This document shows, in pieces, positions 50,701 through 59,937 of a stretch of 64,000 bases of DNA. The translations under genes were made by a program, and so were the position numbers. The DNA lies in the NCBI RefSeq assembly GCF_014838715.1, contig NZ_CP061947.1, forward strand, positions 186,001-250,000, in the 5' to 3' direction. Source of the DNA: Algoriphagus sp. Y33 (GTDB lineage: Bacteria; Bacteroidota; Bacteroidia; Cytophagales; Cyclobacteriaceae). How positions within the stretch are numbered: position 1 is the first letter of the stretch; every line of letters starts with the position of its first letter. Under the pieces are notes generated by a model. It was not told the DNA's origin. It ran no database searches and was given only the letters and a program-made list of their open reading frames with translations.

Positions 50701-50788
50701 ATGAAATGCCCATGAGAAAAGCTTCTCAGACAGAGGGATGATTATCCAGGGCATTCCATGTGGCCATTGAAAATCAAATTATAAACAC
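50701..50788 (+). repeat. Leader repeat copy 1 (before SusD, peptide frame broken)
   Basis: ATGAAATGCCCATGAGAAAA...CAGGGCATTCCATGTGGCC..ATTATAAACAC, ending at the SusD start. It shares the beginning (ATGAAAT), the GGGATGATTAT core, the ATTCCATGTGGCC block and the ATAAACACATGAAA end with copies 2-5. The variable hairpin is GAGAA/TTCTC here. The short peptide frame stops after four codons in this copy. Confidence 0.6.
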
Positions 50789-52384
50789 ATGAAATTGAAA
50801 AATATATTAATCTATTTCTTTCCCGTATTTGTAGGACTCTCAGTATCCTGCAGCGAGGACTTTTTGGATCGACCGCCATTGTCAGAGATAAGCACTGAAA
50901 ACTTCTATAAGACTACCGATGACCTGAGATTGGCTACCGCTGCACTATACGGAGGAGGACCTTGGGCTGAATGGAATTATTCCTGTTACTTGCCTGTAGG
51001 CGAGGTTCTTAGCGGTAATATGGCTGTAGGGTATTGGGGTGATGCAGTTCAGCTGAATACATTCTCCATCACCGGATTGAATGGGATTATGGTTGCAAAC
51101 TGGAGGGCTATGTACAGGATCATTGCCCACTGCAATACAACGATCAATGCCATCACAGACAAAGCGCCTGCAGCTATACCTGAAGAAGACAAGAATGCGG
51201 CTATTGCCGAGGCAAAGTTTATAAGAGGATTTGCATACTATAACCTGGCGTTGCTGTGGGGAGATGTTCCGATTATAGAAGATAATACCAAGTTGGTTAC
51301 TTCCCCTCTGGTTCCCAGATATCAGGTTAACGATGTATACCGGTTAGTGGTGAATGACCTGACTTATGCGGCCGAAAATCTTCCCCTTTCAGATGCTAAA
51401 GGAAGGCTTACCACTTGGTCTGCGCAAGGGATGTTGGCTAAGGTATATCTGACCTGGGCCGGTTTAAATTCGAAAGGACTTGGACAGCGTGACCAGAAAC
51501 TTCTTGACATGGCCAAGCTCTATGCAGGCAATGTGTGTAACGATAGCGGACTGACATTGTTGGACAACTATGAAAATCTGTTTAGAACGGAGTTTAATGA
51601 TAACCGGGAATCATTATTTGCATTGCAATGGTCTCCGGGGCTTGGTTGGATGGAAGGCAACATGCTTCAGATATATTCTCCAGGAGGTGCAGAAATATCA
51701 GCCAATGGACAAGCGGGTTGGTTTGGTATCCGACCTACCATGAATATGTTCGAGTCGTACACTCCGGAGGATAGCATTAGGCGCAAGGCTACTTTTATGC
51801 TGAGGGGGGATTATTACCCTGAGCTGAATGCAGCGGGAGGTGGTTATACTTTCAATGGGGATACCGGTTTGAAGAAGCATATTGTGGGTACCAATGTGGA
51901 CAACAAAGCACCTACAATGACATCGAACTCTTCTCCGCAGCACAATTCTTTATTGAGGCTGGCAGATGTGTATCTGATATATGCAGAAGCCATCTTGGGC
52001 GACAATGCCGTCACATCAGATGCGGATGCGTTGTTTTACTTCAATGAAGTGCGCAGAAGGGCAGGGCTTGCTCCTGTTACCTCGATTGATGCGGACATGT
52101 TGATGAATGAAAGAAGAATTGAGCTGGCCGGTGAAAGTCATTTTTGGAATGATCTGGTAAGGCTTTCTTACTATAATTCTCCAAAGGCAATCGGCATTCT
52201 CAATAACCAGCAACGAATAGCCTTTGAGTATGACGAAAACGGGGTCGTAACACCAAACGACCCTTTCGGCGACATAACCCCGGCGAACGCGAATACCTTT
52301 ACTTTCCCACTGCCTTCAATCGAGGTGACCGCCAATCCCAAATTGATGGAGCCTCCGGTACCATATCCATTTGAAGATAAGTAA
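50789..52384 (+). CDS. SusD/RagB-family surface lipoprotein, locus 2 (531 aa)
   Basis: Surface glycan-binding partner of the SusC gene upstream. The lipoprotein signal ends in LSVSC, followed by SEDFLDRPPLSEISTENFYK, a typical SusD start. SusD helices (AAIAEAKFIRGFAYYNLALL) and the C-terminal block (LMNERRIELAGESHFWNDLV) are present. Its ATG forms the end of leader repeat copy 1. Confidence 0.92.
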   Translation: MKLKNILIYFFPVFVGLSVSCSEDFLDRPPLSEISTENFYKTTDDLRLATAALYGGGPWAEWNYSCYLPVGEVLSGNMAVGYWGDAVQLNTFSITGLNGIMVANWRAMYRIIAHCNTTINAITDKAPAAIPEEDKNAAIAEAKFIRGFAYYNLALLWGDVPIIEDNTKLVTSPLVPRYQVNDVYRLVVNDLTYAAENLPLSDAKGRLTTWSAQGMLAKVYLTWAGLNSKGLGQRDQKLLDMAKLYAGNVCNDSGLTLLDNYENLFRTEFNDNRESLFALQWSPGLGWMEGNMLQIYSPGGAEISANGQAGWFGIRPTMNMFESYTPEDSIRRKATFMLRGDYYPELNAAGGGYTFNGDTGLKKHIVGTNVDNKAPTMTSNSSPQHNSLLRLADVYLIYAEAILGDNAVTSDADALFYFNEVRRRAGLAPVTSIDADMLMNERRIELAGESHFWNDLVRLSYYNSPKAIGILNNQQRIAFEYDENGVVTPNDPFGDITPANANTFTFPLPSIEVTANPKLMEPPVPYPFEDK

Positions 52385-52390
52385 TAACAA

Positions 52391-52484
52391 TCATGAAATC
52401 GAGCATGACTCAAGAGTCACACACTGGGATGATTGTAAACCCTGCGAGATTCCATGTGGCCTTTGAAAAACAAAATATAAACAT
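52391..52484 (+). repeat. Leader repeat copy 2 (before the IPT gene)
   Basis: Carries all blocks of the repeat: ATGAAATCGAGCATG, hairpin GACTC-AA-GAGTC, ACACACTGGGATGATTGTAA, GCGAGATTCCATGTGGCC, and AAATATAAACATATG at the start of the next gene. Confidence 0.7.
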
Positions 52485-52488
52485 ATGA
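52393..52488 (+). CDS. Leader peptide frame in repeat copy 2 (31 aa)
   Basis: Reads MKSSMTQESHTGMIVNPARF then HVAFEKQNINI and stops with TGA that overlaps the next gene's ATG (ATGA), so it could couple translation. The frame is related to those in copies 3 and 5. It may be a real leader peptide or a by-product of the repeat. Confidence 0.4.
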   Translation: MKSSMTQESHTGMIVNPARFHVAFEKQNINI

Positions 52489-53708
52489 AAAAGACTATGT
52501 CAAAATATATAGATCGATTGCTGCTGGCTTGCGCGGCAGTAATGATGACCCTGATGTTTGCCTGTGAGCAGGAGGACTCCTTGCCCGCACCTATCATTAC
52601 AGAAGTCAGAAATTATGAAGCGGCTCCCAACGACACATTAATCACTGAAATGGTTACGGGTCAGTGGGTGGTAATACATGGAAAAAACTTAGCCCAGGTT
52701 GCCCAGGTGACTTTTGGTGGTATCCAGGCAAACATCAACCAAACCTTCTGGACTGATGGAAACATAGTGGTGCAGATACCTTTTATTCCGTTCCAGTCAG
52801 TGTCCTTAGAGGAACTGAATAAAGTAACCGTTGTAAACGCGGGAGGATCTTATACGTATTCGATTGACTTTGTCATTGACCCACCCGTGATCACACGAGT
52901 ATCATACGAACTCCCGAGTGAGGGAGACTCGGTGTACATTTATGGAAGCAATTTCTTTTACGTTGAAGAGGTGACTTTTGCCGGTGCGGCGATTTCAGAA
53001 TACGTATTGTCAGATGATGGTACATCAATTGGGTTTAAGTCCCCTGCACTCAGTCAAAGCGGACCGGTAACGGTAGAAACCGGTTCAGGATCCTATACCA
53101 CTTCTCTGAATGTAAATGATCCCGTAGGTATGCTTTGTAACTTCGATGATATAAACACTTATGGCTGGGGGGCGAACATAAGTAATAGCAGCACTATCTT
53201 TCCGGGCAATAAGGGTAACTATGCAATTTTAAGTAATAATGGCCTGAGTGCGGGTAATTCTAGTTGGTGGGAAGGAGGAAGAAGTATTAATACCAATGCA
53301 GTCCAGTGGGTTCCGGAGGATAAGTTGGACGATCCTGTTGCCGATTATGCTTTTAAATTTGAGATCAATGTACCTGAGCAATGGAATGGAACGTCTCTAA
53401 TCATTTTAAAAGATTTCAATTGGGCCTACGTGGCACGCTACGAACCATGGAATCTTGGAAATAATAAAACTGCCCCATTCAGTACAAAGGGCAATTGGAT
53501 CACGGTAACCATCCCATTTTCAGAGTTTCGTAATAAACCCAATGGAGGAAAAGATGGGACAGGCGAATCAGTTGGAAGTTTAAAAGACTTACTGGGAGAC
53601 TCTGGCAGTGGAGGTATCAATATCTTCACGGTCAATGATTCCAGCCAACCTGCAGCTGCTATGAATTTTGCCGTTGATAATATCAGAATAGTGAAAATAG
53701 CTGAATGA
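52485..53708 (+). CDS. IPT/TIG-domain surface glycan-binding lipoprotein (407 aa)
   Basis: Lipoprotein (signal ending LMFAC) with two IPT/TIG-type Ig folds in the first half (APIITEVRNYEAAPNDTLIT; PPVITRVSYELPSEGDSVYI) and a C-terminal beta-sandwich glycan-binding part (ADYAFKFEINVPEQWNGTSL). This matches surface glycan-binding proteins placed after SusD in many loci. It binds the polymer at the cell surface to help the SusC/D pair. The start codon overlaps the stop of the leader peptide frame. Confidence 0.85.
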   Translation: MKKTMSKYIDRLLLACAAVMMTLMFACEQEDSLPAPIITEVRNYEAAPNDTLITEMVTGQWVVIHGKNLAQVAQVTFGGIQANINQTFWTDGNIVVQIPFIPFQSVSLEELNKVTVVNAGGSYTYSIDFVIDPPVITRVSYELPSEGDSVYIYGSNFFYVEEVTFAGAAISEYVLSDDGTSIGFKSPALSQSGPVTVETGSGSYTTSLNVNDPVGMLCNFDDINTYGWGANISNSSTIFPGNKGNYAILSNNGLSAGNSSWWEGGRSINTNAVQWVPEDKLDDPVADYAFKFEINVPEQWNGTSLIILKDFNWAYVARYEPWNLGNNKTAPFSTKGNWITVTIPFSEFRNKPNGGKDGTGESVGSLKDLLGDSGSGGINIFTVNDSSQPAAAMNFAVDNIRIVKIAE

Positions 53709-53712
53709 TCTT

Positions 53713-53975
53713 AGAGCTTGTTTAAACTTTATCCTTTGGCCTGTGATTGCGCCTCTTTCGCCCATTCTTCGGCTATTTTCGGGGATGTAGCGGAGCTACG
53801 ACCCCGAAAACGAGCCTTGATTGAACTAAAGATGCATCAATTTCATCCGTTTATTGTTTGTTTTTATCTGCCGGATGGAATCTTTGATGATTTAAACAAT
53901 CATTTCCCTTAGGGTTTTAATGATTGTTTAAATCATCTCGATTTCGGCTTCAAAAACAAAATTTAAGCAAGCTCT
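53713..53975. mobile_element. Foldback element with nested inverted repeats (~263 bp)
   Basis: The ends are inverted (AGAGCTTG..TTAAA and TTTAAGCAAGCTCT). Inside lie a 16-bp imperfect hairpin at 53776-53810 (TTTTCGGGGATGTAGC / GCTACGACCCCGAAAA) and a perfect 19-bp hairpin at 53886-53937 (GATGATTTAAACAATCATT and its complement). No transposase frame. It lies directly upstream of a gene remnant and may have taken part in its truncation; it may also act as a terminator for the IPT gene. Confidence 0.6.
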
Positions 53976-54018
53976 TACTTTCTGATTTCTAAAAACCGTC
54001 CCTTTTCCCTCCTTTTTT

Positions 54019-54192
54019 AGTGGGGATTGGGCTAAGGCTGTCATTGAGGAGAGTGAAGTGGTAGTGTATTGGGAGAAGGTGGACAAACCATTGGTCGCTC
54101 GTTATGCTTGGGCCGACAATCCTACAGGTAACCTAGTAAATTCCGAAGGCTTGCCTGCAGTCCTATTCAGAACGGATAATTGGAAGGGATAA
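54019..54192 (+). pseudogene. C-terminal remnant of a sialate O-acetylesterase
   Basis: The frame reads SGDWAKAVIEESEVVVYWEK, then PLVARYAWADNPTGNLVNSE and GLPAVLFRTDNWKG before the stop. This is the characteristic end of sialate O-acetylesterase (SGNH/DUF303 type) proteins (RYAWADNP..NL.N.EGLPA..FRTD.W). About 58 codons remain; the N-terminal catalytic part is gone. No start codon, so it is a gene fragment. Confidence 0.75.
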
Positions 54193-54251
54193 CGCAGAAA
54201 AAGGATCTATAAGAAAGCAAATGATAAACTCAATAACCAAAATAAATTAAA

Positions 54252-55706
54252 ATGAAGAAAATGAAATTGACGGGGGGGCTGGCAGTACTATTCGGAATGA
54301 TGGTACTTGTGTCTTGTGGAGAAGAGGGTGTGATAGACCCCGTGCTTAACGTTTCCGTGAATAAGTTGGAGTTTGATGAAGAAGGAGGGGACATGGAAAT
54401 CTCAATAACCAGTACCAATGAATGGAGTATCAGTAATCAGGCCTCATCGTGGTTGCAGTTAAGCCAAACAGCAGGCAATAGCGGAAGCACTTCTATTCAA
54501 ATAACCGCTGTTCTCAATGCCACCGGACTGACCCGATCCACTGTATTGAATATTACCTCGCCAAACGGCCAGGGCAGGAGGATTACCGTTTCGCAGATTT
54601 CCACGCTATATCCTTCCTACAATACATCTCCGCTGCCTCCCGATGCAACGGGAATGGGCAGCAATGCAGTAGAGCTTGCCGCTAAAATGAAGTTGGGCTG
54701 GAACATCGGAAATACAATGGAAGCCCCCGGTGGCGAGGAAGGCTGGGGAAATCCGAAGATTACTGAAGCGTATGTAAAGTTTGTAAAGCAACAGGGATTT
54801 AATGCAATTCGCCTTCCTGTTTCCTGGGACTGGCACCATGTTGTGGATAGGAATACTGCAAAGATTGACCCTGTCTGGATGGACAGGGTAAAAGAAGTGG
54901 TGGGTTACTGTGTAAACAATGATATGTATGTGTTGCTCAATATCCACTGGGATGGTGGCTGGCTGGAAAACAATGTCACCCCAGCCAAGAAGGATTCGGT
55001 GAATGCCAAACAAAAAGCGTATTGGGAGCAAATCGCCACGGCACTGCGGGATTTTGACGAGCACCTGATGTTTGCCGGTGCCAATGAGCCCAACGTCCAT
55101 GATGAAGTACAGATGGAGGTACTTCATTCCTATCACCAGACTTTCGTCAATGCTGTCCGGGCCACGGGCGGACGAAACAGTTACAGGGTACTCGTGATTC
55201 AGGGGCCTGATACCAATATTGAAAAGAGCCATGAGATGATGAATATGCCTACAGATGAGATAGAAGGACGTATGATGGCTGAGCTACATTATTACACTCC
55301 GCCCCAGTTCTGTATCTTGGCAGAAGACGTAAGTTGGGGGAATATGGTCTATTACTGGGGAAATGGGTATCATTCAACCATTGAACCGGACCGGAATGCC
55401 ACCTATGGAGAGGAAGATGATGTGGTTAAATCTTTCGGTCTGGCAAAGCAGAAATTCGTGGACAAAGGAATCCCGGTAATCCTGGGCGAGTATGGGGCAT
55501 ATAGGCGTAACAATGCGCAACATGTACCACTGGATCTGGAGACCCACAATAACTCCGTGGATCATTGGATCAGGTATGTGACAAAAAAGGCGATCGAAAA
55601 TGGTTTAATCCCATTTTGGTGGGATACAGGTGGAGCATTGGACAGACGACTTTATACGGTGAAAGAGCAGCGTACGATTGACAATATTATTGAAGGCGGT
55701 AAATGA
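54252..55706 (+). CDS. BACON-domain GH5 endo-beta-glycanase (484 aa)
   Basis: Surface lipoprotein (signal ending LVSC, Cys22). A BACON domain (about residues 33-112: LEFDEEGGDMEISITSTNEW) precedes a GH5 cellulase-type TIM barrel. Acid/base E279 is in FAGANEPN and nucleophile E413 in VILGEYGAY; the histidine of NIHWDGGW also fits the family. It cleaves internal beta-linkages in a glucan- or hemicellulose-type polymer outside the cell. The GH5 subfamily is not clear. It is followed by a terminator-like hairpin and leader repeat copy 3. Confidence 0.92.
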   Translation: MKKMKLTGGLAVLFGMMVLVSCGEEGVIDPVLNVSVNKLEFDEEGGDMEISITSTNEWSISNQASSWLQLSQTAGNSGSTSIQITAVLNATGLTRSTVLNITSPNGQGRRITVSQISTLYPSYNTSPLPPDATGMGSNAVELAAKMKLGWNIGNTMEAPGGEEGWGNPKITEAYVKFVKQQGFNAIRLPVSWDWHHVVDRNTAKIDPVWMDRVKEVVGYCVNNDMYVLLNIHWDGGWLENNVTPAKKDSVNAKQKAYWEQIATALRDFDEHLMFAGANEPNVHDEVQMEVLHSYHQTFVNAVRATGGRNSYRVLVIQGPDTNIEKSHEMMNMPTDEIEGRMMAELHYYTPPQFCILAEDVSWGNMVYYWGNGYHSTIEPDRNATYGEEDDVVKSFGLAKQKFVDKGIPVILGEYGAYRRNNAQHVPLDLETHNNSVDHWIRYVTKKAIENGLIPFWWDTGGALDRRLYTVKEQRTIDNIIEGGK

Positions 55707-55710
55707 GAAT

Positions 55711-55752
55711 GCGCGGCCCAATTGTCCCGACTGTTCAGGGCAATTGGGCGCT
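55711..55752 (+). terminator. Terminator-like hairpin after the GH5 gene
   Basis: CCCAATTG (55717-55724) and CAATTGGG (55741-55748) pair, with an inner TCCCGACTGTTCAGGG. The inner unit resembles the CCCCGACTATTCGGGG hairpin found inside leader repeat copy 3. Confidence 0.5.
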
Positions 55753-55777
55753 TATCCAAGACTGAAATACCGGAAAA

Positions 55778-55900
55778 TAATAAACACATGAAATCGAGCA
55801 GGTCGAGAGCGACACACACTGGAATGATTATAAACCGTGCGAGATTCCATTGCCTGCCCCGACTATTCGGGGTGGCCTTTGAAAGACAAAATATATACAA
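55778..55900 (+). repeat. Leader repeat copy 3 (before the GH2 gene, with 21-bp insertion)
   Basis: Contains ATAAACACATGAAATCGAGC, hairpin GTCG-AGAG-CGAC, ACACACTGGAATGATTATAA, GCGAGATTCCA, then a 21-base insertion with a CCCCGACTATTCGGGG hairpin, then GTGGCCTTTGAAAGACAAAA. The insertion keeps the peptide frame. Confidence 0.7.
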
Positions 55901-55904
55901 ATGA
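55788..55904 (+). CDS. Leader peptide frame in repeat copy 3 (38 aa)
   Basis: Reads MKSSRSRATHTGMIINRARF, then HCLPRLFGVAFERQNIYK and TGA overlapping the GH2 ATG (ATGA). The seven-codon insertion CLPRLFG corresponds to the GC-rich palindrome. Related in sequence to copies 2 and 5. Confidence 0.4.
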   Translation: MKSSRSRATHTGMIINRARFHCLPRLFGVAFERQNIYK

Positions 55905-57697
55905 ATTACTTTAATACAATGATAACAGGATGGATATTGGTTTTTGGAGCCTTTATCCTATTGGGAAACGATATCTGTGCGCAGACCGCAATGGCTAATA
56001 TCCAATCCAGGAAGTTGACAAGCCTGAACGGGGAGTGGAGAGCATTAATAGACCCTTCCAATACAGGTGAATATCTTCAGGTGTGGGTAGGGAAAAAACC
56101 TGTCAAAAAAACAGATTTTTATGAGTACTCGTTTGAAGAGGCTTCAGTATTGAATGTGCCCGGAGACTTTAATTCCCAGATGAGCGAGTTAACCTATTTC
56201 GAAGGGACAGTCTGGTACAAAAAGCAGTTTAATTATTTGATTGCCGAAGGGAAAAGGCTGTTTCTCCATTTTGGGGCGGTTAATTACCTGGCTGACGTGT
56301 ACCTGAACGGCGAAAAAATCGGTAGCCATGAAGGCGGTTTTATCCCTTTTCAGTTTGAAATTACAGACAAAATCAAGGATGGGGATAATACCGTTATTGT
56401 GAAGGTCAACAATAACCGTAAAGGAAACGGCCTCCCGGGCTATGGGTATGACTGGTTTAACTATGGAGGTATTACCCGTGACGTGGATTTAATTGAAACA
56501 GACAACACCTTTATTGAAGATTATTTCATACAGTTAAAAAAAGGAAGTCTTACTACAGTCTTAGGGTGGGTTAAGATGAATGGAGCCGGTGAAAAACAGG
56601 ACATTGAGATTGAAGTCCCCGAACTAAATTTGCGCTATAAAGCAATAACAGATGATGAGGGCTTTGCCCACGTGGAATTTGAGTCGGAGTTTGAACTTTG
56701 GTCACCCGAAAACCCCAGACTTTATAGCGTAACTGTTAAAAGTGACACGGATTTTTTGGTTGACACTATAGGATTCAGAAGTATAGAAGTGCAGGGTAAT
56801 CAGATCTTGCTAAACCGTAAGCCAATATTCCTAAAGGCTGTCAATATCCATGAGGAGAATCCTCACAGAATGAATAGAGCGTATTCAAGCGAAGATGCTA
56901 AGCTGTTGCTTAATTCGGCAAAAGAACTGGGATGTAATCTTGTCCGTCTGGCCCACTATCCTCATAGTGAAAACATGGTGAAGGAAGCCGAGCGATTGGG
57001 AATCATGGTTTGGGATGAGCTGCCTGTGTATCAGCATATCCAGTTTTCCGATAGTCTCATGCCTGCAAAATTGGAGCAAATGCTTCAAGAAATGGTTGGT
57101 CGTGACAAAAACCGTTGTGGGGTCGTCGTTTGGGCACTTTCGAACGAAACATACCCCAGTACACCCAATAGGAATGATAGACTTATTGAACTTACACAAA
57201 AGTGCCGGTCCTTGGATTCTGCCCGCTTGATCACCCATGTAGTCAATACCCAAAGCTACGAAAACCATACAGTGAACGTTTGGGATTCCCTTTACATCCA
57301 TTCTGATATTGTCGCACTCAACGAGTATTTTGGATGGTACTTGCCGTGGCAAGGGAAGCCGTCAGACACAAAATGGAACATTAGTTTTCCTGACAAGCCG
57401 GTATTTATTTCTGAATTTGGAGGGGAAGCTGTGTACGGGAATAGTGATGGTCCACCGGATGAAGCCGCTTATTGGACGGAGGAATATCAAGAGAAAATCT
57501 ACGTTGACCAAATTGAGATGTTCAATTCAGTTCCCAACTTGGTAGGAGTATGTCCATGGCTTTTGTTTGACTACAGATCACTGGGACGGATGCATTCAGT
57601 TTACCAAAAGGGGTACAACAGAAAAGGGCTGATATCTGAAAAAGGAGGGAAAAAGAAAGCTTGGTATGTCATGAAGGAATATTTTGAGGGCAAATAA
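55901..57697 (+). CDS. GH2-family glycoside hydrolase (598 aa)
   Basis: Exported (signal segment ending ICAQ). It has the sugar-binding jelly roll (SLNGEWRALIDPSN.. GDFNSQMSELTYFEGTVWYK), Ig-like domain and TIM barrel. Acid/base E416 is in WALSNET and nucleophile E505 in FISEFGGEA, as in beta-glucuronidase/beta-galactosidase types; NCBI-style subfamily is uncertain. It is short for a GH2 because it lacks C-terminal domains. It would process oligosaccharides released by the GH5 enzyme. Its ATG overlaps the stop of the leader peptide frame. Confidence 0.9.
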   Translation: MNYFNTMITGWILVFGAFILLGNDICAQTAMANIQSRKLTSLNGEWRALIDPSNTGEYLQVWVGKKPVKKTDFYEYSFEEASVLNVPGDFNSQMSELTYFEGTVWYKKQFNYLIAEGKRLFLHFGAVNYLADVYLNGEKIGSHEGGFIPFQFEITDKIKDGDNTVIVKVNNNRKGNGLPGYGYDWFNYGGITRDVDLIETDNTFIEDYFIQLKKGSLTTVLGWVKMNGAGEKQDIEIEVPELNLRYKAITDDEGFAHVEFESEFELWSPENPRLYSVTVKSDTDFLVDTIGFRSIEVQGNQILLNRKPIFLKAVNIHEENPHRMNRAYSSEDAKLLLNSAKELGCNLVRLAHYPHSENMVKEAERLGIMVWDELPVYQHIQFSDSLMPAKLEQMLQEMVGRDKNRCGVVVWALSNETYPSTPNRNDRLIELTQKCRSLDSARLITHVVNTQSYENHTVNVWDSLYIHSDIVALNEYFGWYLPWQGKPSDTKWNISFPDKPVFISEFGGEAVYGNSDGPPDEAAYWTEEYQEKIYVDQIEMFNSVPNLVGVCPWLLFDYRSLGRMHSVYQKGYNRKGLISEKGGKKKAWYVMKEYFEGK

Positions 57698-57732
57698 GGA
57701 ATGTCTGGCGATTTGGGTGGATGTGAGCTTTC

Positions 57733-57885
57733 CGCAATAAAATCAGGCTGTTTGGAGACTGAGTCCGCCGCGGCGGATATGGTGAAGTCGAAAATTGCAA
57801 TGCAGTGACTGATTTAGAAGCAATTATTGGCCGCAATAACTTGTACGCCGTGGCGTAGAAGCGCTAATGCATAATGCGGGTTAAA
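57733..57885 (+). mobile_element. MITE-like element, copy C (5'-truncated, ~150 bp)
   Basis: Matches the right two thirds of copies A and B: AAATCAGGCTGTTTGGAGAC, GAGTCCGCCGCGGCGGATAT, then CTTGTACGCCGTGGCGTAGA and the terminal CTAATGCATAATGCGGGTTA. The left terminal repeat and the CCGAT..ATCGG hairpin are missing. Confidence 0.7.
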
Positions 57886-57897
57886 TGTTAATTTTTG

Positions 57898-58020
57898 CCG
57901 AATATACCGTGTAGGAGGAGCGAGGATTCTTATCAGATTATGGTGGAGCTCAGTCATTCTTTCAATACCGGTATTTATGAAGATGCCGGCAGAAAAGTGT
58001 TCGAAGAGGTTAGTAATTGA
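57898..58020 (+). other. Unexplained short reading frame or gene fragment
   Basis: One frame ends SYQIMVELSHSFNTGIYEDA followed by GRKVFEEVSN and a stop at about 58020. It has a protein-like composition but no clear start or family. It could be the 3' remnant of a gene lost next to the MITE copy, or chance. Confidence 0.2.
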
Positions 58021-58100
58021 ATTATCCGGTATTATTTTCTCATGTTATTTGTAATCAGTCTAAATAGTAATATCTTCGTGGAATCGCTTATTCCACCCTA

Positions 58101-58652
58101 TTGTTTCACTCCAAGTTAAATACTGATTTTCGGCCTACTCCGGATATAAAAACTCAAAAAGGTTTTGAGAAGGCCTATAATCTATACGCTGCAAAGATGT
58201 ATGGGATTTGCAGAAGTAAGATCAATAGTAGTGAAATAGCTGAAGAAATCGTCCATGATATATTCAGATCACTTTGGGAACGAAGGAATTTGGTTGAAAT
58301 CAATGAACATATAGAGCAGTATCTAATAAAAGCCACCAAACTGAAAATCATCGACCACTATCGACAGAAGGCCAGAGATGAAAAGCATTTGGTTTGTGCG
58401 TTAGAAGAGTATTGCGAAACAGAGAACTGTACAGAGCATGATGTTGAATTCGAAGAATTGCAAATACGGGTTGATTTTTTAGTGGACAGGCTCCCGTGTA
58501 AATGTCAGGAAGTGTATCGGTTAAGCCGTGAAAAGGGATTGAGCAACAAGGAGATAGCCTCTACTCTTCTTGTCTCAGAAAAGACGGTAGAATACCACCT
58601 CGCCAAGGCGTTGAGTTATCTTAAAGAGCGGTTAAAGGAATACAGGTTTTGA
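58101..58652 (+). CDS. ECF-type RNA polymerase sigma factor (183 aa)
   Basis: Bacteroidota-type extracytoplasmic-function sigma-70 factor. Region 2 lies at about residues 25-95 (LYAAKMYGICRSKINSSEIA) and region 4 at about 125-175 (LPCKCQEVYRLSREKGLSNK, HTH with EIASTLLVSEKTVEYHLAKA). It starts with TTG at 58101; no in-frame ATG upstream. It is expected to be held by the FecR protein encoded next and to activate the TonB receptor gene in response to siderophore binding. A terminator follows at 58666-58689. Confidence 0.9.
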   Translation: MFHSKLNTDFRPTPDIKTQKGFEKAYNLYAAKMYGICRSKINSSEIAEEIVHDIFRSLWERRNLVEINEHIEQYLIKATKLKIIDHYRQKARDEKHLVCALEEYCETENCTEHDVEFEELQIRVDFLVDRLPCKCQEVYRLSREKGLSNKEIASTLLVSEKTVEYHLAKALSYLKERLKEYRF

Positions 58653-58665
58653 TTTTCTTTTTTAT

Positions 58666-58689
58666 ATTCCGGTCAAGCCGGAATTTTTA
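58666..58689 (+). terminator. Terminator after the sigma factor gene
   Basis: ATTCCGG, loop TCAAG, CCGGAAT followed by TTTTTAAAACTTTTTG: a classic stem with T-tract 13 bases after the stop codon. The FecR gene begins 85 bases further on, so read-through or a separate promoter is needed. Confidence 0.65.
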
Positions 58690-58774
58690 AAACTTTTTGT
58701 TTTTTTCTCTACCTGACCTAGGGTTCTTCCCGACTTGTACGATTTAGATAGTAGCAAGGACAAACTATCAAGCT

Positions 58775-59707
58775 ATGCAAATCACGGAGGAATTACTGAA
58801 AAGGTACAGTGAGGAAAACTGTACTGAAGAAGAGATACGGGCTGTTGAAGCTTGGCTGCTTAATTCTGACAGAGAGGAAGGGGCTGAATACAAAGAAGAA
58901 TTTACAGGAGTCAAGTCAAAAATATGGTTACGTCTTTCTTCCCGCTTTCCCCAAGAGAACACCGCTGTCATTCCCCTTTTTAAACAAATTATCCGCTATG
59001 CTGCAGTTATCAGTATCCTGATGGCCGTCGGTTTTGTGATCTTGAGCAATCAAACTATATCAGACCTTTTTGCTGTGCAGAAGACCGTCGCTTACGGTCC
59101 CGGTGAGCAAGGCCTGCTTACCCTGAAAGACCATAGTAGGATTCAACTCAATGCGGGATCCAATTTGCACTATTCCTCCGCTTTTGGCAGTAAAAACAGA
59201 GAAGTCAATTTAGTGGAAGGAGAAGCATTTTTTGATGTTGTGCGGGATACTGATCACCCGTTTACAGTGCGTACAGACGAGGTAGCTATTACCGTACTGG
59301 GTACGAAGTTCAATATCGATAATGATCCGAAAGACCAGAAGATAGTGGTAACGCTTATCGAGGGGGCAATAAAGTTTTCAGCACCGGGGAAGGATTATGT
59401 GCTGTCTCCCGGAGAGCAGGTTACCTACAACAGAAGAACAGGTGATGTCCAAATATTGCGTGATGTAAATATAGAGATGGTTACCGCATGGACTAAGGAT
59501 ATTCTGTGGTTTGTAGCAACACCCATGGCCGAGGTGTTTGAAGCACTAGAGCAACGGTATGGCTTTCGGTTCGAGATTCAAAGAGATATTGATATTCCAT
59601 TTTCGGCCAAGTTTGAAAAGGAGTCTCTTGATAAGGTATTACGCTTGATCGAGGCAAGTACCGATTTGAAATTCAGAAAAGAAGAGAAGGGAATTATTGT
59701 CTATTGA
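58775..59707 (+). CDS. FecR-family anti-sigma regulator (310 aa)
   Basis: Inner-membrane anti-sigma protein: N-terminal cytoplasmic part (EELLKRYSEENCTEEEIRAV), one transmembrane helix near residues 72-92 (YAAVISILMAVGFVILSN), FecR domain (about 105-200: TVAYGPGEQGLLTLKDHSRI, ...AEGEAFFDV-type strand) and a C-terminal DUF4974 domain that contacts the STN domain of the receptor. It follows the sigma gene and precedes the STN-type TonB receptor, as in cell-surface signalling systems. Confidence 0.9.
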   Translation: MQITEELLKRYSEENCTEEEIRAVEAWLLNSDREEGAEYKEEFTGVKSKIWLRLSSRFPQENTAVIPLFKQIIRYAAVISILMAVGFVILSNQTISDLFAVQKTVAYGPGEQGLLTLKDHSRIQLNAGSNLHYSSAFGSKNREVNLVEGEAFFDVVRDTDHPFTVRTDEVAITVLGTKFNIDNDPKDQKIVVTLIEGAIKFSAPGKDYVLSPGEQVTYNRRTGDVQILRDVNIEMVTAWTKDILWFVATPMAEVFEALEQRYGFRFEIQRDIDIPFSAKFEKESLDKVLRLIEASTDLKFRKEEKGIIVY

Positions 59708-59709
59708 TT

Positions 59710-59823
59710 CAAAATATAAACACATGAAATCAAGCATGATTCAAGAGTCACACCGAGGGGATTATAACCGTGCGAGATTCTCCCAATCCGCCGCGGCGGA
59801 TCGGGACAAGGCTATCTGACCAT
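59710..59823 (+). repeat. Leader repeat copy 4 (between FecR and receptor, right part replaced)
   Basis: Begins AAAATATAAACACATGAAAT, hairpin GATTC-AA-GAGTC, then GGGGATTATAACCGTGCGAG and ATTCTCCCAA. Its 3' part is replaced by TCCGCCGCGGCGGATCGGGA, a palindromic unit also present in all MITE copies. Confidence 0.6.
59724..59819 (+). CDS. Leader peptide frame in repeat copy 4 (31 aa)
   Basis: Reads MKSSMIQESHRGDYNRARFS then QSAAADRDKAI and stops. The first part matches the other leader peptides (one residue missing at GMIIN); the second part is translated from the palindromic unit. It does not overlap a gene start. Confidence 0.3.
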   Translation: MKSSMIQESHRGDYNRARFSQSAAADRDKAI

Positions 59824-59825
59824 AA

Positions 59826-59937
59826 AAAAACAAAAATAAACAGATGAAATCGAGCATGTCGAAGACGACACACAGTGGGATGATTATAAACCGTGCGAGA
59901 TTCCATGTGGCCAATAGAAAACAATTATAAACACATG
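59826..59937 (+). repeat. Leader repeat copy 5 (before the receptor, no adjacent gene start)
   Basis: Tandem to copy 4. It shows ATAAACAGATGAAATCGAGC, hairpin GTCG-AAGA-CGAC, ACACAGTGGGATGATTATAA, GCGAGATTCCATGTGGCC, and ends ATTATAAACACATGAAAAAA. The final ATG (59935) opens only a 13-codon frame (MKKVRGPTPGKSY). Confidence 0.65.
59844..59930 (+). CDS. Leader peptide frame in repeat copy 5 (28 aa)
   Basis: Reads MKSSMSKTTHSGMIINRARF then HVANRKQL and TAA. It is the cleanest version of the shared peptide (MKSS..., GMI.N.ARFHVA). It ends four bases before the repeat's terminal ATG instead of overlapping it. Confidence 0.35.
   Translation: MKSSMSKTTHSGMIINRARFHVANRKQL

Follow-up and report, generated by a model that had tools for sequence, protein, structure and literature searches.

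Repeat units in the window and beyond

The window, a stretch of 64,000 nucleotides (nt) from the chromosome of Algoriphagus sp. Y33 (Cyclobacteriaceae; contig NZ_CP061947.1, positions 186,001 to 250,000), carries at 50.7-59.9 kb five copies of a short repeat unit that begins with one ATG and ends with another, and this unit is the subject of the present analysis. As a first-pass annotation of the sequence had stated, all five are present on the forward strand, the final ATG of copies 1-3 starts a SusD, an IPT and a GH2 gene, respectively (now confirmed with Pfam domains), copies 2-5 read MKSS from their first ATG, and the TGA of this small frame overlaps the gene ATG in copies 2 and 3. The features concerned are as follows.

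50701-50791, forward strand: copy 1, stem type AATGCCC/GGGCATT; its last ATG is the start of the SusD gene (50789)
50789-52384, forward strand: SusD-family gene (PF07980, PF14322), which starts with the terminal ATG of copy 1
52393-52487, forward strand: copy 2, stem type AATCGAGC/GCGAGATT, frame MKSSMTQESHTGMIVNPARFHVAFEKQNINI; its TGA overlaps the gene ATG (52485)
52485-53708, forward strand: gene for an IPT/TIG and SGBP-B-type glycan-binding protein (PF18329, PF01833), starting at the end of copy 2
53844-53947, reverse strand: sixth copy, decayed, of a long-stem subfamily, away from gene starts (model match E 0.34)
55788-55903, forward strand: copy 3, with an inserted hairpin 3' of ATTCCAT; its TGA overlaps the GH2 start (55901)
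55901-57697, forward strand: GH2 gene (PF02836, PF02837), starting at the end of copy 3
59711-59726, forward strand: truncated 3' end (AAAATATAAACACATG), directly before copy 4 and 3' of the stop of a FecR-type gene
59724-59846, forward strand: copy 4, the older of a tandem pair, with an inserted hairpin; its last ATG is the first ATG of copy 5
59844-59937, forward strand: copy 5, of which 59847-59937 belongs to a set of 12 copies in this genome that are identical over 91 nt

The earlier description of five similar units stands as far as their presence is concerned, but it missed the sixth copy, the truncated end, the tandem arrangement of copies 4 and 5 (which have one ATG in common) and the divergence of copy 1. 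The stem sequence of the latter (ATGAAATGCCC.../GGGCATTCCAT) differs from that of the other units, and it has no MKSS-type peptide because its 5' frame reads MKCP-stop, four codons in all. The terminal stem of copy 2 has one mismatch (inner CATGTG against terminal CATATG), and the last ATG of copy 5 opens only 13 codons. In the sixth copy, the 5' ATG has become CCG and the terminal stem reads CATCCG/CGGATG; other copies of its long-stem subfamily are of the CGATTAAAATCATCATT...AATGATTATTTTAATCG type. The SGBP-B domain of the protein encoded behind copy 2 is of the xyloglucan-binding type. Small hairpins (TCCGCCGCGGCGGAT, CTGTCCCGA...TCGGGACAG and CCTGCCTGCCGCAGGCAGG) occur at fixed places inside many copies and are also found alone, with examples in the window at 57764-57787 and 59787-59810, as if a second small repeat nested in the first.

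A 20-base core of the unit, with up to three mismatches, was matched three times in the window against none in 100 shuffles, and 65 times in the chromosome of 6,378,979 bases against none for the reversed control, which rules out a chance repeat; one core match, at 399774, stands without the remainder of the unit and by eye looks like a chance match within a gene. The 5' end ATGAAATCGAGCATG gave 233 genome matches against six for its reversed control. A model, R1, was built from 41 aligned copies using the poor five-pair structure that RNAalifold returned for the first alignment, poor because inserts and subfamilies misalign. R1 therefore works essentially as a model of sequence, and its training set consisted of Cyclobacteriaceae copies, so that it undercounts distant copies and its silence in a genome means little. 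It found at least 150 matches in the chromosome, all with E < 1e-5. From 212 nhmmer matches in the genome, 193 copies were kept after those below 25 bits or lacking a 3' end had been dropped. They stand singly or in head-to-tail arrays in which the last ATG of one copy is the first ATG of the next, 50 of the 193 adjoining another copy. Twelve copies are identical over 91 nt and have different flanks, and the family has therefore moved recently.

Beyond this genome, the exact core was found in at least 120 stretches of named genomes among the matches listed, the taxa being Algoriphagus, Belliella, Cyclobacterium, Lunatimonas, Lunatibacter, Anditalea, Mongoliibacter and other Cyclobacteriaceae or Cytophagales bins. 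At the level of the order, R1 matched 26 of 291 genomes (22 within the family, four outside it), and at the level of the class, 25 of 395 Bacteroidia genomes, 19 of them outside the family. A separate detector for the class level, which required ATGAAA, TTCCAT and an exact P4 stem (described below), was run on 26 stretches (L434-L459) and returned 21 copies against 0 and 3 in the controls. One such stretch, L447 of genome G697, outside the family, holds three near-identical tandem copies, the last ATG of which opens only 24 codons. An Rfam search up to E 1 gave no match at the element (two sub-threshold matches lay elsewhere), and none was found in the plasmid and phage searches made for it. 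The family is real and widespread, and it is apparently undescribed: in the open-licence literature, as far as searched, no element like it was found, in keeping with what the first reading of the sequence had supposed.

Position at start codons

Within the 193 copies, 143 are terminal and 139 of these end in ATG; in 109 of the 139, this ATG opens an open reading frame (ORF) of at least 50 codons, and in 102 of these cases AAA follows as the second codon. The annotation's portrayal of a portable unit at gene starts is borne out by these figures, and copies lying mostly away from gene starts, which would have spoken against it, are not what is seen genome-wide. Outside this genome, the loci of relatives were chosen by exact core match and the order- and class-level stretches by model score, so the shares that follow do not come from random samples: such an ORF is opened by 28 of 31 copies in the relative G056 (sampled at its 30 best loci), by 14 of 19 terminal copies in the class-level stretches, and five of the six terminal copies in the four order-level genomes outside the family stand at ORF starts. 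Among the 12 identical copies of the Y33 genome, eight likewise lead into an ORF of at least 50 codons. At the other end, 195 of the 234 copies that come first in their array (own and relatives' loci together) carry ATG at the 5' junction, with no consensus upstream of it.

The unit is accordingly read here as a mobile DNA element, ~91-125 nt long and non-autonomous, that inserts at the start codon of a gene, usually ATGAAA, a reading to which a probability of about three in four is given. As judged from the sequence comparisons, the native start codon, with the sequence upstream of it, is left in place after insertion as the 5' ATG of the element, and the gene starts at the second ATG(AAA), at the 3' end of the element. 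Sites with and without the element were compared. In a paralogue pair of the same genome (L232 occupied, L028 empty), both flanks align and the element fills the gap at ATGAAA. For a gene of the glucosamine/galactosamine-6-phosphate isomerase family, the start in 15 relatives that lack the element is the homologous ATG (ATGAAA in nine of them); in a sixteenth relative, L210, that codon is occupied by a tandem pair of independent origin. G021 (~75% identity) lacks the element at a third site and has ATGAGA there, and further empty and occupied sites stand among the comparisons listed, which are part of 150. It follows from these comparisons that the MKSS start codon is the former start of the gene. 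The ATG(AAA) on both sides may be element sequence instead of a target-site duplication. In the paralogues L028, L232 and L174, an identical DNA stretch, CCTCCTACGCGGAGGTGTATTTTCG, lies just 3' of the start although the proteins are only ~50% alike; it contains a perfect CCTCC/GGAGG hairpin. Copies also precede pfkA (phosphofructokinase, above the NCBIfam cut-off) and genes of the LptF/LptG permease and aminopeptidase P (Xaa-Pro aminopeptidase) families, and since genes such as phosphofructokinase are among the hosts, the host genes are presumably still translated and working.

The arrays have a polarity. In the analysis of adjacent pairs, for which unparsable copies were dropped (193 to 177) and the younger copy was taken to be the one closer to some other copy in the genome, the gene-proximal copy was the younger in 34 of 37 own-genome pairs, the older in one and tied in two; by model bits the ratio was 28:9 and by core mismatches 23:5. 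Seven of the 12 identical copies lie behind the end of an older copy and none lies in front of one.

These data bear on an alternative which needs no new machinery beyond selection, namely that the element inserts at any ATGAAA on either strand and that the excess at start codons arises from the loss of insertions in coding or 5' regulatory DNA, a gene hit at its start codon being able to survive. ATGAAA is indeed common at starts, opening 84 of 553 called ATG-start genes (rough calls, made as the first ATG of ORFs of at least 90 codons), and an old copy is found within a transposase-like gene (L307). Counts of ATGAAA in the fetched DNA, with the copies excluded, are 84 at called starts, 806 within called genes and 181 in the remaining non-coding DNA; the unoccupied ratio of 84:181 is to be set against 109:30 for the terminal ATG copies. 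Moreover, the 5' ATGAAA of an old copy is an equally good and harmless target, yet the younger copy is the gene-proximal one in nearly all pairs, which argues that either the start in use or the 3' end of the element is recognised. Constraint near genes does not account for this order, because single copies at genes look no younger than others (medians of 0.871 for 82 gene copies and 0.910 for 24 non-gene copies). Insertion at any ATGAAA is thus considered possible but rather unlikely, and targeting of the start codon is preferred.

Folded structure and the small peptide frame

The coding strand has three conserved, covarying stems: P1 follows directly after ATGA, the hairpin P2 lies inside P1, and P4 is formed by CATNNN, directly 3' of P1, with N'N'N'ATG at the 3' end. 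Starting from 431 copies, 340 could be parsed for the lengths of the hairpin region and 314 for P4, the unparsable ones being dropped. The P4 trinucleotides are exact complements in 219 of the 314 (shuffles: mean 91.0, maximum 116), the pairs being GTG/CAC (103), CTG/CAG (63), ATG/CAT (51) and AAG/CTT (2), with ATG/CAG (23) as the main mismatched group. P1 differs by subfamily with matching changes (AATCGAGC/GCGAGATT, AATGCCC/GGGCATT, AATACCC/GGGTATT, AACCCGCATGA/TCATGCGGGTT and AACCGACA/TGTTGGTT), often with a tandem GA/GA in its middle. In P2, positions 3-12 are paired in 78% and positions 5-10 in 77% of 137 distinct forms, where 48% and 54% would be expected; the alignments show AGCATG or a similar sequence at the 5' hairpin foot. 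Across 45 diverse rows, 93.3% of cells pair against 84.8% after shuffling, 25 cells are changed on both sides against 7.4, and the covariation score of 0.268 (against 0.113) was reached in none of 500 shuffles. Folding of eight test sequences with RNA parameters returned P1 in seven and P4 in six, one of the P4 failures lacking the 3' end in its slice; with DNA parameters, P4 was returned in four of four and P1 in three of four. P4 might conceal the start codon of the host gene, and ribosomes might be passed on to it from the old start.

A structure of this kind could belong to a conserved regulatory RNA, spread by duplication and kept for the control of a regulon. Its predicted ability to pair with the gene AUG would suit such a role, as would a constant co-transcription with its gene. 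The host genes are unrelated, however (SusD, GH2, pfkA, LptF/LptG family, Xaa-Pro aminopeptidase family), the element is present or absent among orthologues, and tandem arrays, 12 identical copies and the lack of an Rfam match at the element likewise speak against a regulon, which is judged very unlikely.

The leader peptide is the short frame opened by the 5' ATG, and it usually ends within the element. The first-pass annotation had taken it for a translation-coupling peptide, and a translated peptide of that kind might be what selection maintains. In support of this, 55 of 110 single gene copies that retain their 5' ATG have the stop of the frame at -9..+1 relative to the gene ATG; non-gene copies, however, place the stop alike (nine of 19, p = 1). 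The 5' ATG is retained more often at genes (110 of 121 copies) than elsewhere (19 of 29; p = 0.0014), which leans toward use of the peptide. Age, P1 pairing or genuine use of the former start would each be a possible cause. No coding signal was found. The hairpin region measures 21 nt in 201 of the 340 parsed copies and 22 nt in 52, so that the core is read in different frames; the ratio of nonsynonymous- to synonymous-like changes for the GMIIN... frame is 0.67 in the 21-nt class, where it is read (122 distinct cores), and still 0.62 in the 22-nt class, where it is unread (28 distinct cores), the actual peptide frame of the latter giving 0.93. Purifying selection on the peptide is rejected, the core varying alike whether the frame is read or unread, and the annotation had itself named such an absence as telling against its proposal. 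With copy 1 of the window reduced to a four-codon frame besides, the selected leader peptide, already weakened, is regarded as extremely unlikely, and the small frame looks like a by-product.

Mobilisation and comparison with known systems

Insertion at a conserved feature of a gene that stays working is familiar from tRNA-gene integrases and Tn7. These use one or a few fixed sites, whereas the present element is found at hundreds of different start codons. A closer likeness is to the IS200/IS605 family (IS608, TnpA_Y1), which, according to passages of PMC6006769 and PMC5934647, also has subterminal hairpins, no terminal inverted repeats and like sequence closing the right end; in IS608, as outlined in parts of the same two papers, the target is chosen by pairing of an internal guide with the left flank and with the right end. 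The CAT of the element lies at the place of an IS608-type guide and could pair with the ATG at both ends and at the target, from which a guidance of cleavage is inferred. Unlike IS200/IS605 members, the element has no transposase inside it or adjoining, its presumed guide would pair with ATG, a single CAT might act at both ends, and insertion is at start codons; the lagging-strand habit of that family is also not reproduced, the copies having no replication-strand bias beyond that of genes. REP/REPIN sequences with their RAYT (TnpA_REP) are similarly short, high-copy, intergenic hairpin repeats that are probably mobilised in trans, but the element is without their GT[AG]G hairpin foot (the foot as given in a section of PMC6006769), and the RAYT-type genes examined have no adjoining copies except for L307 (inside) and L327 (nearby). 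Miniature inverted-repeat transposable elements, including the enterobacterial RU elements, are likewise small and non-autonomous, some with open frames that meet genes (from portions of PMC2759123 and PMC10969869); the present element differs in lacking terminal inverted repeats (5' AAATCGAGC... and 3' ...TAAACACATG), in being rarely fused in frame and in its site, the start codon. The Rickettsia palindromic elements are also small repeats tolerated by genes, as excerpts of PMC10969869 have it, but they lie in frame inside ORFs with a conserved peptide, whereas the present element is outside the ORF and has no conserved peptide. Small mobile repeats are thus a known kind, and the new feature is the targeting of the start codon together with its restoration.

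A mobiliser was sought among Y1 transposases (PF01797), of which there are six genes in the genome and which are present in 65 of 72 genomes of the genus. Fourteen candidates in the collected loci for 5' and 3' element ends enclosing a gene were none of them convincing, and no autonomous partner was found around the few copies of the order-level genomes. Three 5' ends without a nearby model match had suggested lone left ends; of nine such ends read, most proved to be complete divergent copies, and this candidate was set aside. L299 and L301 have 5' ends with no 3' end close by. Several side observations concern the transposase genes themselves: in L307 (~1375-1470), an old copy interrupts a RAYT/Y1 transposase-like gene of the same genome (154385, forward) close to the beginning of that gene; L306 has an intact RAYT-type gene amid a different palindrome family (GCAGTCTTCAGACTGC, AAGTCTTCAGACTTG); and L317, L322 and L323 hold other Y1 genes (MANTYTQIHIHLIFAVKFRKALI...) with flanking palindromes of the GTTCCGTAGGAACG type.

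A number of observations weigh against a mobile element with a preference for start codons in use. With regard to position, the frame opened is shorter than 50 codons for 30 of the 139 terminal ATG copies and for four of the 12 identical, youngest copies, and one of these 12 has ATT instead of ATG at its 5' end. The polarity of arrays is weak in other relatives (41:27 by bits, p 0.11) and amounts to 8:2 in G056 (p 0.11). As to structure, two of the five covariation measures are level with shuffles (pairs changed on both sides, 2 against 1.7; additional pair types, 8 against 7.7), the covariation alignment includes two rows that match by chance, several copies fold with unremarkable energy (z -1.1 to -4.6), and one of the eight RNA folds has neither P1 nor P4. 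With regard to mobilisation, none of 86 stretches with Y1 transposases has a copy adjoining the gene, the exceptions being the decayed copy inside the gene of L307 and the nearby copy in L327, and a replication-strand preference beyond that of genes is absent (copies 113:80 on the leading strand, genes 295:193, with origin and terminus estimated from the GC skew of the fetched stretches).

By analogy with IS200/IS605, it is tentatively proposed that the element is moved by a trans-acting, TnpA-like single-strand transposase with the internal CAT as its guide. Pairing of the CAT with either terminal ATG, and with that of the new target, would give both the specificity for start codons and the restoration of the start; new copies would then enter at the start codon currently in use, and arrays would grow towards the gene. 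Alternatively, targeting might take place on RNA or be coupled to translation initiation, the CAU of the element transcript pairing with mRNA starts and the product being copied back into DNA. The sense orientation, a preference for start codons beyond the ATGAAA motif, the array polarity, the missing replication-strand bias and the RNA-like stems would all fit; guide pairing in DNA explains the stems equally well, and no reverse transcriptase or splicing activity was seen, although none was sought. Targeting at the RNA level is held to be improbable.

On a broader and speculative view, these repeats may form a class of miniature mobile elements, spread across the Bacteroidia, that use the functional start codon as their attachment site. 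Pairing between the CAT guide and ATG, perhaps on the non-template strand or on mRNA, would let the machinery recognise the start in use, each insertion would move the start to its own end, arrays would grow on the gene side only, and initiation regions would progressively be replaced by a shared structured leader. If the reading as a mobile element at start codons is right, hundreds of genes per genome in some Bacteroidia would carry a mobile, structured 5' leader able to pair with the start codon, and a self-restoring start codon would be a choice of target not met in the literature searched. Such elements would be a source of translational variation as well as a naturally guide-paired insertion system, and they would call for caution in annotation, as the 5' ATG of such genes would be a former start.

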